Position numbers and translations under genes: made by a program. From Levilinea saccharolytica (GTDB lineage Bacteria > Chloroflexota > Anaerolineae > Anaerolineales > Anaerolineaceae), in assembly GCF_001306035.1 (NCBI RefSeq), contig NZ_LGCM01000028.1:1-64000 (forward strand): a stretch of DNA of 64,000 bases. The letters are read 5' to 3'. The notes under the pieces are model-generated. The model did no database searches, was not told the origin of the DNA, and saw nothing but the letters and a program-made list of their open reading frames with translations. Of the stretch, positions 7,936 to 11,943 are shown in pieces (position 1 is the first letter of the stretch; each line of letters starts with the position of its first letter).

Positions 7936-9483
7936 TTACTTGGCGTAATCCACCGCGCGCGTCTCCCGGATCACCGTCACCTTGATCTGACCCGGATACT
8001 GCATGGTCTCTTCGATCTTGCGGGCGATATCCCGCGCCAGGCGCGTCGCGGCCAGATCATCCACATCCTCAGGCCGCACGATAATGCGCACTTCGCGCCC
8101 CGCCTGAATGGCATAGCTCTGGCTGACGCCCTTCTGCGAATTGGCGATATCTTCCAAAGCGCGCAGGCGTTTGATGTACTGTTCCAGGTCTTCGCGCCGA
8201 GCGCCCGGGCGTGCGCCCGAAATGGCATCCGCCGCTTCCACGATCACCGCTTCCACGCTCTCCTGCTCCACCTCGTGATGGTGCGAAGCGATGGTATTCA
8301 CCACTTTGACGTTCACCCCGTGCCGCCGGGCAAATTCGGCGCCAATCGAAGCGTGCGTGCCTTCGGTATTGTGATCCATCGCCTTGCCCAGGTCGTGCAG
8401 CAGGCCGCCCGCCTTACACGTCTCCACGTCCGCGCCCAATTCCAGGGCGATGATTGCGGCCAGTTTCGAAACTTCCACCGCGTGCGCCAGTTGGTTCTGG
8501 CCGTAAGAAGTGCGGTAGCGCAGCCGCCCCAGCACCTTTAAGATCTCAGGGTGCAGCCCAGGCACGTTGGCCTCGTAGGCCGCCTGCTCGCCCGCTTCCA
8601 CAATGGCGCGGTCCACTTCGCGTTGTTCTTCGGCCAAAATTTTCTCAATATGCGCCGGGTGAATGCGGCCGTCCAAAATCAGCCGGTCCAAAGCCCGCCG
8701 CGCCACTTCACGCCGCACCGGATCAAAACAAGACACCGTCACAGCTTCCGGGGTATCATCCACGATCACGTCCACACCAGCTGCCTGTTCAAAGGCGCGG
8801 ATGTTGCGCCCGTTGCGGCCTACGATGCGCCCCTTCATCTCTTCATTGGGCAGAGAAACCAGCGAAGTGGTCACTTCGGAAACATGCTCCGACGCCACCC
8901 GTTGGATGGCATCTGCGATCAGCTCCCGCGCTCGCTTTTCGCCTTCCTGGCGCGCCTCAGCCTCAATCTGGCGAATAATGCGCGCCATATCGTTGCGTGC
9001 CTCTTTTTCCGCCGATTCCAGCAGTTCCTTACGCGCCTCTTCCACCGTCATCTGCGACACGCGCTGAAGTTCAACCAGCTGGTCGTTATACATCTTCTCC
9101 ACATCGTTCACGCGCTTATCCACCGAACTTTGGCGTTTGTTCAGGGCTATTTCGCGTTGTTCCAGCCGTTCCACTTTGTGATCCAGTTCTGCGCGGCGCT
9201 TTTGCAGGCGTTCTTCCTCGCGAGAAAGCTCCTGCCGCCGCCGGTTGATTTCACTTTCACCTTCCTGCAGCGACTTCAGCGCCTTATCTTTCGCCTCTAA
9301 TTCTATGGTTCGGGCTTTTTCCTTGGCGTTCGAAAGTACAACCTCCAGCTTCGCCGATTCTTCCTTCTTAAATCGGTCCAACAGAAAACGTGTGGCGAAA
9401 TAGGCCACACCGACCACAATCAAGATATCAAATACAATCAAAAGAATTAACACCAGCGGGGATAGTCCATTCATAGTCAGCAT
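7936..9483 (-). CDS. rny: Ribonuclease Y
   Basis: The 515-residue endoribonuclease that initiates mRNA decay at the membrane. An N-terminal transmembrane helix (about residues 8-30) is followed by a long charged coiled coil (about 35-190). A KH RNA-binding domain (MKGRIVGRNGRNIRAFE) and a metal-binding HD domain (LLHDLGKAMDH) come next. Length and domain order are exactly those of the family. The ATG at 9483 overlaps the recX stop by seven bases and has GAGG seven bases ahead. A second ATG three codons on is less well placed. Translation is therefore probably coupled to recX. The terminator at about 7.9 kb ends the transcript. Confidence 0.97.
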   Translation of the reverse strand: MLTMNGLSPLVLILLIVFDILIVVGVAYFATRFLLDRFKKEESAKLEVVLSNAKEKARTIELEAKDKALKSLQEGESEINRRRQELSREEERLQKRRAELDHKVERLEQREIALNKRQSSVDKRVNDVEKMYNDQLVELQRVSQMTVEEARKELLESAEKEARNDMARIIRQIEAEARQEGEKRARELIADAIQRVASEHVSEVTTSLVSLPNEEMKGRIVGRNGRNIRAFEQAAGVDVIVDDTPEAVTVSCFDPVRREVARRALDRLILDGRIHPAHIEKILAEEQREVDRAIVEAGEQAAYEANVPGLHPEILKVLGRLRYRTSYGQNQLAHAVEVSKLAAIIALELGADVETCKAGGLLHDLGKAMDHNTEGTHASIGAEFARRHGVNVKVVNTIASHHHEVEQESVEAVIVEAADAISGARPGARREDLEQYIKRLRALEDIANSQKGVSQSYAIQAGREVRIIVRPEDVDDLAATRLARDIARKIEETMQYPGQIKVTVIRETRAVDYAK

Positions 9484-10145
9484 CTCTCATCCTCATTTCC
9501 GAAAGTGGGTTCCGCCTCAGAGGCCTGAATTTCTTCCCAAATGCGTCGGACTGCTGAAGCCGTCGTCTCGAAAACAAAGCCCCTGCGCGCTAGATACGCG
9601 CTCAACCGTTCTCGAAACTCGTTCCACTCCAGCCCGGCCCAGCGGCGGGCACGCTTCAGCCCGGCCTGGTATGCCAGTTCTTCTTCATCGGTGGCTTCTT
9701 CTAAAGCAGACAGGATTGCTTCTTCTGCGACCCCTTTATGGCGCAGCTCCGCGCGCAGCATGGCGCGGCTGCGCGGTCGAAAAGCGCTTCGATTTTCAAC
9801 CCAAAGGCGGGCGAACTGTTCATCTCCGATCAGCCCGCTGTTGGTCAGGCGTTCCACAGTCGCCTCAATCACCGGCCCCTCATATCCGTGCTTGCGCAAA
9901 CGCTGTTCCACCTCGGCCTGTGAGCGCGGACGGTAACTCAAGAACAGCAAAGACCGCTGGTAAGCTACCTCGTAGGTGTCTTGCCCTTGCAGCTCTGCAA
10001 TTTTTTCATCCCCAAGTTCCTGTCCCACTTGCAGCCAGGCCGCTGTAATCCGCGCCAGCCCAAACGCGTACTCCCCATCCAGGTAAACATTGACCCGATT
10101 TGGGTTGCGTTTTTGTACTTTAAGGGCCGTGATCTTCTTCGTCAT
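9477..10145 (-). CDS. recX: RecX-family regulatory protein
   Basis: The 222-residue helical protein matches RecX, which binds the RecA filament and limits its extension. Recognisable pieces are the N-terminal KNxNRVNVYLDGEYAFGL-type start, SYRPRSQAEVEQRL (about 75-88), GLIGDEQFARLW (about 105-116) and a third three-helix repeat after about residue 150. No Shine-Dalgarno is visible: the ATG is preceded by a hairpin plus TTTTAAT. The gene overlaps rny by seven bases, an unusual partnership of RecA control with RNA decay. A long untranslated region with RNA-like signals lies upstream. No recA is in the window. Confidence 0.9.
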   Translation of the reverse strand: MTKKITALKVQKRNPNRVNVYLDGEYAFGLARITAAWLQVGQELGDEKIAELQGQDTYEVAYQRSLLFLSYRPRSQAEVEQRLRKHGYEGPVIEATVERLTNSGLIGDEQFARLWVENRSAFRPRSRAMLRAELRHKGVAEEAILSALEEATDEEELAYQAGLKRARRWAGLEWNEFRERLSAYLARRGFVFETTASAVRRIWEEIQASEAEPTFGNEDERC

Positions 10146-10148
10146 ATT

Positions 10149-10187
10149 AAAACGCGCAGCCGTGAACGCTTCCGATCGTCACGGCTG
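10149..10187 (-). terminator. Terminator-like hairpin directly before recX
   Basis: On the minus strand CAGCCGTGA (10187-10179) pairs perfectly with TCACGGCTG (10165-10157). CGCGTTTTAAT and the recX ATG follow at once. The U tract is short (four), so it may attenuate rather than terminate. It occupies the place where a ribosome site would be expected. Confidence 0.6.
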
Positions 10188-10232
10188 AGATAGAACGGCT
10201 ATTCAGGATGGCCTATCCATCCGAGGGGTACG

Positions 10233-10283
10233 AAAAAACGCTTACCTGCCGGTAACACTCAGCAGGTTGGACATTCAAAAGCG
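10233..10283 (-). terminator. Terminator ending the candidate RNA
   Basis: On the minus strand CGCTT...CCTGC...GCAGG-T-AAGCG forms a two-part stem with T6 directly after. It lies about 90 bases upstream of recX, so transcription from the 10.55 kb promoter may stop here. Confidence 0.65.
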
Positions 10284-10532
10284 CTGCTTGCCTGATCGCG
10301 TTGAGGCATGGGCTTGATTACACCTTATGCTGTTATCCTGGTCGTCCCGCTTCCCACAGTGTTCGCTTTTTCTGCAAGAACGCGTTCTCAAACCTTGAAC
10401 GTGACCGCTTCTAAATGACCCTTACAAACCAACACTCCCCTCGGAGTGGAATTACAATTCCTGTCGCTGCCAGACTTATCAGCCATTTCAACCGGTTAAT
10501 CAGATCGCAAAAAAGAAAGCTAATCTAGACAA
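10233..10532 (-). ncRNA. Candidate structured RNA of about 300 nt, family not recognised
   Basis: A promoter-like pair (10538-10566) and an intrinsic terminator (stem arms around 10239-10249 and 10262-10283, then six T at 10238-10233) bracket about 300 bases without a plausible protein. Inside are two adjacent small hairpins (10448-10461, GGAAT/ATTCC, and 10434-10447, ACTCC/GGAGT) and a GAACGCGTTC palindrome. I looked for signatures of tmRNA, RNase P RNA, SRP RNA, T-box and cobalamin elements and saw none. 6S RNA or an unknown leader of recX-rny remain possible. Boundaries are inferred from the signals only. Confidence 0.45.
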
Positions 10533-10537
10533 TTACT

Positions 10538-10566
10538 ATTATACAAGATTTTAATCATTTCGTCTA
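10538..10566 (-). promoter_or_regulatory. Promoter of the candidate RNA / recX leader
   Basis: TAGACG (10566-10561), a 17-base spacer and a perfect TATAAT (10543-10538) on the minus strand. The -35 matches consensus at four of six positions. Start of transcription would be near 10531. Confidence 0.7.
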
Positions 10567-10665
10567 TTTTTTTGTACACATGCTGCGGCGCGCGCGTTCT
10601 GTGTAGCCAAAAACTGGAGTACAATCAAAATATCTCGCTTTTCTATCCTCACAAAGGACATCCCA

Positions 10666-11943
10666 ATGGCCGTCACCCGTGAAGAAGCCCTGGAATATCA
10701 CCATCTCAATGGCCGCCCCGGCAAATTGCAGGTGGTCCCCACCAAACCCCTTGCCACCCAGCGCGATCTCAGCCTGGCCTATACCCCCGGTGTGGCCTAC
10801 CCCGTTCTCGAAATTGAACAGGATGCAGAGTTGGCCTATGAATACACCAACCGCGGCAACCTGGTGGCCGTCATCTCCAACGGAACCGCCATCCTGGGCC
10901 TGGGTAACCGCGGCGCGCTGGCTTCCAAACCGGTGATGGAAGGCAAAGGCGTCCTCTTCAAGAAATTTGCCGATATTGACGTGTTCGACATCGAAGTCAA
11001 CACCCTCGACCCCGAAGTGTTCATCCAAACCGTGGCCGCAATCGCCCCCACCTTCGGGGGCATCAATCTGGAAGACATCCGCTCCCCCGAATGTTTTGAG
11101 ATCGAAACCCGCCTGCAGGCCATGTTGGACATCCCCGTTTTTCACGACGACCAGCACGGCACCGCCATCATCCTCGGCGCAGCCCTCATCAACGCCCTCG
11201 AATTGACCCAACGCAAGATAGATGAGATCAAGGTGGTTTTCTCCGGCGCGGGCGCCGCCGGCATCTCCTGTGCCCGCCAGCTGGTCAAAATCGGCGTGCC
11301 CCGTGAGAATATCTGGATGTGCGATATCGCCGGTCTGGTCTATCACGGCCGCCCCGAAGAAATGTTCCCGCAGAAGGCCGAATTTGCCCAGGGCGATCGT
11401 CCCGCCTCGCTGCGTGAGGTCATCCGCGGCGCAGATGTCTTCATCGGCCTGTCCGCCGCCAACCTGGTGGACGAAGATATGCTCTGTTCCATGCGCTGCG
11501 ACCCCATCGTCTTCGCCATGGCCAACCCCGACCCCGAAGTCCGCTACGAAATCGCCCATTCCTGCTGCCCAGGCGGCATCGTGGCCACCGGCCGTTCCGA
11601 TTACCCTAACCAGATCAACAACGTGCTGGGTTTCCCCTTCATCTTCCGCGGCGCGCTGGATGCCCGCGCGCGCTGCATCAACGACGAGATGAAAATCGCC
11701 GCCTCTCATGCTCTGGCCGCCCTGGCCAAAGAGCCCATCCCCGCCCAGGTGCTGCGCGCCTACCATCTGGATCATCTCGAATACGGCAAAGATTACATCG
11801 TCCCCAAACCGCTCGACCCGCGCGTCAGCCTGTGGGAATCCGCCGCGGTGGCCCAGGCTGCTATCGAAAGCGGTGTCGCCCGCCGCGCCCTGGATTTGGA
11901 AGCGTACCGCCAGCGGCTGGCCGCTGGGATGCCTGCTGAATAA
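10666..11943 (+). CDS. NAD(P)-dependent malic enzyme (short form)
   Basis: The 425-residue enzyme oxidatively decarboxylates malate to pyruvate, linking the TCA cycle with gluconeogenesis. Family marks are [10 protein letters not shown] (about 39-48, the catalytic Tyr region), the [12 protein letters not shown] segment, HDDQHGTA (about 161-168, metal ligands) and a Rossmann GAGAAG at about 195. AMANPDPE follows at about 284-291. At 425 residues it is the short bacterial form without a phosphotransacetylase domain. The ATG at 10666 has AAAGGA eleven bases upstream, and TACAAT at 10620-10625 is a plausible -10. It stands alone, divergent from the candidate RNA. Cofactor preference is not decidable by eye. 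Confidence 0.95.

Follow-up and report, generated by a model that had tools for sequence, protein, structure and literature searches.

We found that the gene-free stretch in front of recX in Levilinea saccharolytica is a cis-acting 5' leader of the recX-rny operon, running from 10531 to 10146 on the minus strand of the 64,000-nucleotide stretch of DNA that was analysed (the window). This leader of about 385 nt is very probably a structured part of the recX-rny mRNA able to regulate the operon by transcription attenuation. Its position before recX, its promoter, its folding, two mutually exclusive pairings that co-vary and the absence of other copies are what the comparison of sequences brings out. 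The leader is an uncatalogued structured RNA with no match in Rfam. The gene-free stretch is real and functional, with boundaries and an identity unlike those of the initial annotation. Of the features described there, the promoter, the gap and the small hairpins were recovered while the T6 tail as a terminator was not; of the interpretations offered, the recX-rny leader is supported, whereas a 6S-like RNA and a free-standing RNA of about 300 nt are not.

The gap lies between a malic-enzyme gene (10666-11943, plus strand) and recX (9477-10145, minus strand), and no gene was found filling it, in agreement with the roughly 300 gene-free nt noted before. The end of recX is overlapped by rny, encoding RNase Y (7936-9483, minus strand; TIGR03319, 653.6 bits against a cut-off of 454.35), and the recA gene of this genome is on a separate contig (G000:C13). 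The recX gene of the window has its own promoter. The near-consensus promoter TAGACG-17-TATAAT is indeed present on the minus strand at 10566-10538, with 10 of 12 consensus matches, its -35 element TAGACG being at 10561-10566 and its -10 element TATAAT, preceded by TG (TTGTATAAT), at 10538-10543. A scan of 1.2 kb, as made here, would be expected to give 0.7 such matches, so that taken alone this one is close to chance. The promoter stretch 10532-10567 differs at 1 of 36 positions from that of the sister species, a member of the same genus (locus L002), and the -10 element recurs in relatives as KGTATAAT. This motif was detected 220-470 nt before recX in 50 of the 67 genomes in which recA is not the upstream neighbour (shuffled mean 0.45) and in none of the 23 genomes with recA upstream, indicating that the leader has its own promoter where that of recA is unusable. 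From the position of the -10 element we infer a leader start near 10531.

To define the other end of the leader, we compared it with the sister species. Over 10146-10531 the two leaders differ at 5.7% of sites; third codon positions of recX differ at 14.0%, and the intergenic DNA lying upstream of the promoter at 14.9%. The leader and its arms are thus conserved while third codon positions drift. Conservation passes 10233, where the RNA had been proposed to end, and reaches the recX ATG at 10145. The hairpin previously taken for an intrinsic terminator is present at 10244-10267 on the minus strand, with its stem ACCTGCTGAGTGTTACCGGCAGGT and its T6 tail. In the sister species this stem is unchanged (0/24) but 6 of the 14 tail positions differ and the T run is lost; a terminator role for the T6 site was consequently rejected. 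A free-standing RNA of about 300 nt ending at 10233 is unsupported, given the loss of the T run and the continuation of homologous leaders to the recX start. The stop signal is likelier to be a hairpin directly before the recX start codon (10157-10187, minus strand; CAGCCGUGA...UCACGGCUG). Its 9 bp (CAGCCGTGA...TCACGGCTG) are within the conserved stretch, with 0/19 changes in the arms and 3/13 in the loop relative to the sister species, and it is followed by the tail CGCGUUUUAAU (10156-10146), which has just four U in a row, and then by the recX start codon. Folding separates the two ends as well: the z-score is 0.07 for 10230-10531, no better than shuffles, and -2.45 for 10146-10531, reaching -2.71 for a slightly longer stretch that begins right after TATAAT.

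The two adjacent small hairpins of the initial annotation both exist, GGAATTGTAATTCC and CACTCCGAGGGGAGTG, the latter at 10448-10433. This hairpin (CACUCCGAGGGGAGUG, 10433-10448, minus strand) is unchanged in the sister species (0/16) and is the counterpart of a CUCC...GGAG hairpin found in related leaders, where it is named P3. In the window it is rivalled by a long-range pairing, since the lowest-energy folds instead pair 10444-10437 with 10228-10221. The CCGAGGGG of the small hairpin (10444-10437) is a perfect complement of CCCCTCGG (10228-10221), about 210 nt further on, and both segments are identical in the sister species. The palindrome GAACGCGTTC of the window reads GAACGCATTC in the sister species.

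The claim that the stretch has no known RNA family signature held when Rfam was searched: at gathering scores, no model matched the stretch, and 20 leaders taken from recX loci of named genomes gave no match either. With permissive settings, the sole match to the stretch was to 6A RNA, which was rejected as it scores 20.4 bits against a gathering score of 41.2 and is on the opposite strand. The 6S-like identity was likewise rejected. The 6S model (RF00013) has no match here, and 86 of 101 relatives encode canonical 6S RNA elsewhere, the sister species doing so on another contig (G001:C56). Like 6S RNA, the leader is a structured RNA driven by a promoter; they differ in location, 6S being elsewhere in relatives. 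Unlike the sister species and most relatives, the window genome (G000) gives no 6S match anywhere in its assembly, which is probably due to an assembly gap. Among open-licence PMC papers, searched at the level of listings, no literature on such a leader was found.

We then looked for conservation among relatives. The recX gene is present in 94 of 101 relatives, and upstream regions were collected for 90 of these loci (G049, G061, G074 and G088 were left out). The leader is found again before recX across Anaerolineales: many genera have the promoter, the hairpin and the terminator at corresponding places, so that the absence of conservation named beforehand as a refutation is not what is observed. 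In most of 30 loci, several hundred non-coding bases precede recX whatever gene is beyond, and homologous leaders are found before recX irrespective of the upstream gene. In many leaders the -10 element is followed, at a distance of 60-105 nt, by the pyrimidine-purine hairpin CUCC...GGAG, whose letters vary but stay complementary. Of the 90 upstream regions, 70 have a terminator-like hairpin close to the start of recX. For folding, promoters were assigned by hand among the 90 regions and 30 of these leaders were scored: the mean z is -3.79, with z below -2 in 26 of the 30, and their antisense strands also fold well (mean z -3.13; 20 below -2). Attenuation through a leader peptide was considered at this point, as GGAG followed by ATG or GTG was read by eye in some leaders. 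However, no frame common to the leaders was seen, the first 230 nt are free of ATG in 12 of 75 leaders, and the sister species shows whole unchanged stretches and not third-position changes. We rejected this explanation as extremely improbable.

Next, a sister family of leaders was used to obtain a structure model. Named genomes were scanned, and of the 80 recX loci obtained, among them those of Bellilinea caldifistulae and Longilinea arvoryzae, 69 have a promoter; 34 leaders align well, with invariant or nearly invariant stretches such as GGGAGUU. RNAalifold gave a similar architecture in three subgroups, the third agreeing less closely: P1 closes the core, followed by P2, P3 (the CUCC/GGAG hairpin), P4, P5, P6 and the terminator. 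We label this family "Villigracilaceae-type", which is not a classification. A covariance model, R1, was built from 20 sequences and matches 80 of 152 genomes of the sister family with one full-length copy each, one positive genome having an additional fragment at a contig edge. In 79 of the 80 positive genomes (G121, at a contig edge, was left out), recX is directly downstream of the match in 77 loci; of the two exceptions, one contig ends too soon and the other is a weak match (E 0.009) without recX. A terminator-like hairpin near the recX start was found in 64 of 77 loci of this set. In L180, L188, L204 and L148, an extra 50-120 nt with short inverted repeats separate the leader terminator from the recX start. 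The -35 region of sister-family promoters (e.g. L178, L179, L158) is very often GTTAAC(A), a palindrome that might serve as an operator site as well.

Covariation in the R1 family is strong. When 77 R1 matches were aligned (A5; L218 and L291 excluded), two-sided changes were observed in 39 of 50 pairs, compared with 22.6 in shuffled and 20-27 in slid controls, and 84.4% of cells pair, compared with 32-48% when slid. This alignment leans towards R1 because it was fitted to the model; A4, an unfitted alignment, beats its shuffles too (13 vs 5.5 pairs). The structure that RNAalifold itself draws from A5 has 12 pairs only, and pairwise covariation scores on A3 are swamped by relatedness.

An RNA acting in trans, encoded before recX by chance, would account for a promoter and a terminator of its own and for a terminated product of about 380 nt. 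We rejected this highly improbable reading, along with a free-standing small RNA in general: the element adjoins recX in the 77 of 79 R1 loci, its terminator is a few nt from the start codon, and it is single-copy, a search for a second copy in the genome of the window having found none, so that it does not behave as an independent gene. The leader of the window itself has no R1 match, the best score with filters off being 1.8 bits, and no global consensus was obtained for the Anaerolineaceae leaders, whose groups are too diverged. The window was therefore grouped with the recX-rny leaders, in a broad sense, by position, promoter, hairpin and switch and not by a shared core model. It has a same-strand promoter 220-470 nt before recX, a CUCC...GGAG hairpin 60-105 nt after the -10 element, an AGCCG-type terminator hairpin directly before recX with a weak U tract, and a 5' strand complementary to the terminator 5' arm.

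This 5' strand (CCGGUUGAAAUGGCUGA, 10479-10495, minus strand) is a putative antiterminator. It is unchanged in the sister species (0/17), and in the minimum-energy fold of the window it captures the terminator 5' arm, 10178-10172 pairing with 10495-10489 and 10188-10182 with 10485-10479. Forcing the terminator costs just 5.3 kcal/mol (-125.5 vs -130.8), so the two states are close. To determine whether strand and arm change together, 146 leaders with a promoter and a terminator found by script were reduced to 53 representatives sharing less than 15% of their 8-mers. The first 95 nt of each leader pair with their cognate terminator arm at a mean of -15.79 kcal/mol, compared with -12.96 (sd 0.32) when arms were permuted, and none of 20,000 permutations was as low. 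Leader stretches 95-190 and 130-225, tested against the arms of the same 53 representatives, showed no cognate preference. Reversed 5' ends, used as a composition control, have a small cognate advantage of 0.8 kcal/mol (76/20,000), compared with 2.8 for the real strand. The complementary strand mostly begins 30-60 nt after the -10 element, and example pairings of 9-11 bp alter together between lineages. When the 20 representatives of Anaerolineaceae type, the window among them, were taken alone, the cognate preference held (0/20,000), and in these the zone just inside the antiterminator strand, where P1 would lie, showed a cognate preference too. For the window, the cognate duplex reaches -19.2 and 2 of 145 foreign arms are as good, with the arm delimited wider than the hairpin. 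For the sister species, in which the script delimited the hairpin differently, 94 of 144 foreign arms give a duplex as good as the cognate one; antiterminator strand and terminator arm are identical in the two species. A strand and an arm that co-vary in this way are the signature of a terminator/antiterminator switch.

The same test in 22 recA-recX genomes went in the same direction without reaching significance (p 0.098; 0.11 with a U tract required), G078 and G065 being single cases with perfect strand/arm matches of 9-10 bp. In several recA-recX genomes (e.g. G068, G078, G065, G070; L081, L019, L083, L114), a strand just after the recA stop codon is a perfect complement, over up to 9-10 bp, of the terminator arm before recX, which suggests that the switch may predate the separate promoter. 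Since recA is directly upstream of recX in many genomes of the order, with a similar hairpin before recX there, the leader could instead be a passive leftover, in which a retained recA terminator gives a fixed low readthrough into recX-rny without any sensing. In E. coli, recX is expressed by fixed readthrough past a recA terminator. Neither a co-varying antiterminator nor a conserved, promoter-driven folded body would be needed for a passive terminator, and we hold this explanation to be quite unlikely.

Altogether, these results point to an attenuation mechanism for the recX-rny leader. The strong promoter would start the RNA near 10531. If the hairpin 10187-10157 forms, transcription would halt just before recX, leaving a short leader RNA; if the 5' strand 10495-10479 captures the terminator arm 10188-10172, the whole leader would be closed as one long-range domain, the terminator could not form and recX-rny would be read. 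In the sister family, the P1 core helix is flanked directly by the antiterminator strand on one side and by the terminator arm on the other, and with the core so placed its folding should favour reading, a stable core fold meaning 'on'. As rny comes after recX at 138 of 140 loci, the sequence being cut short at the remaining two, the pair would be under joint control. We infer that transcription does terminate here in cells and that some input tips the balance; candidates would be a small molecule or feedback by one of the two gene products, RNase Y or RecX.

The input could be RNase Y itself, a refinement of the attenuation mechanism that we regard as possible though doubtful: excess enzyme would cut the exposed 5' end and remove or free the antiterminator strand, leading to termination or to decay of the mRNA. 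The second place of rny in the operon in those 138 loci and the start of the antiterminator strand, mostly 30-60 nt after the -10 element, are consistent with it. Of the traits of an RNase autoregulatory leader, the operon linkage to rny is the one shown; cleavage by the encoded RNase would be predicted to lower its own expression. However, the loci were selected by recX, so feedback on recX is equally compatible, and when we looked for a leader kept with rny in genomes without recX, rny was mostly missing from these assemblies too, so that they do not separate the two targets. In PMC10303841, B. subtilis RNase Y is reported to regulate itself via cuts in its own mRNA, including some that fall mostly in the first 50 nt of the 5' UTR, which makes RNase Y feedback a reasonable first test here. 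Alternatively, the core might bind a metabolite or an ion that would stabilise P1 and thereby the antiterminator. A compact core of several helices, in which stretches such as GGGAGUU are invariant or nearly so among the 34 aligned sequences, and a P1 adjoining the switch strands would fit such a riboswitch; yet the leader matches no catalogued class and, apart from the CUCC...GGAG hairpin, the two families have no recognisable core sequence in common, which is unusual for a ligand pocket. A riboswitch seems unlikely.

With this leader, a phylum whose regulatory RNAs are little charted gains an uncatalogued structured RNA, with a switch that is directly testable as two named strands compete for one terminator arm. 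If regulated, it would bring a DNA-repair modulator and the principal RNA-decay enzyme under control at the RNA level, and, given the linkage to rny, purified components would suffice to test whether the nuclease feeds back on its own leader. Tentatively, it may represent a Chloroflexota RNA sensor of a new class, setting the RecA modulator and the main RNA-decay nuclease through one terminator/antiterminator decision. Such a sensor would possibly respond to RNase Y activity, by which the antiterminator strand is cut off, or to a ligand, and would so couple recombination control to RNA-decay capacity.

Several known systems resemble parts of this arrangement. The recA-recX readthrough of E. 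coli shares a hairpin terminator before recX, but the recX of the window has its own promoter, recA being on contig G000:C13. In 'on'-type riboswitches that attenuate transcription, such as the pbuE adenine riboswitch, the helix closing the domain uses the terminator 5' arm, so that folding blocks termination. The predicted closing of the recX-rny leader is alike in this respect; the leader differs in being larger, in having other helices and no Rfam riboswitch match, and in controlling recX-rny. The rne gene of E. coli has an autoregulatory 5' UTR, and there, as here, a leader is ahead of the gene for the main mRNA-decay endonuclease. The same likeness holds for the 5' UTR of B. subtilis rny, where, according to PMC10303841, control is by cleavage and decay of the mRNA, whereas the window has a predicted terminator/antiterminator switch with recX as the first gene.
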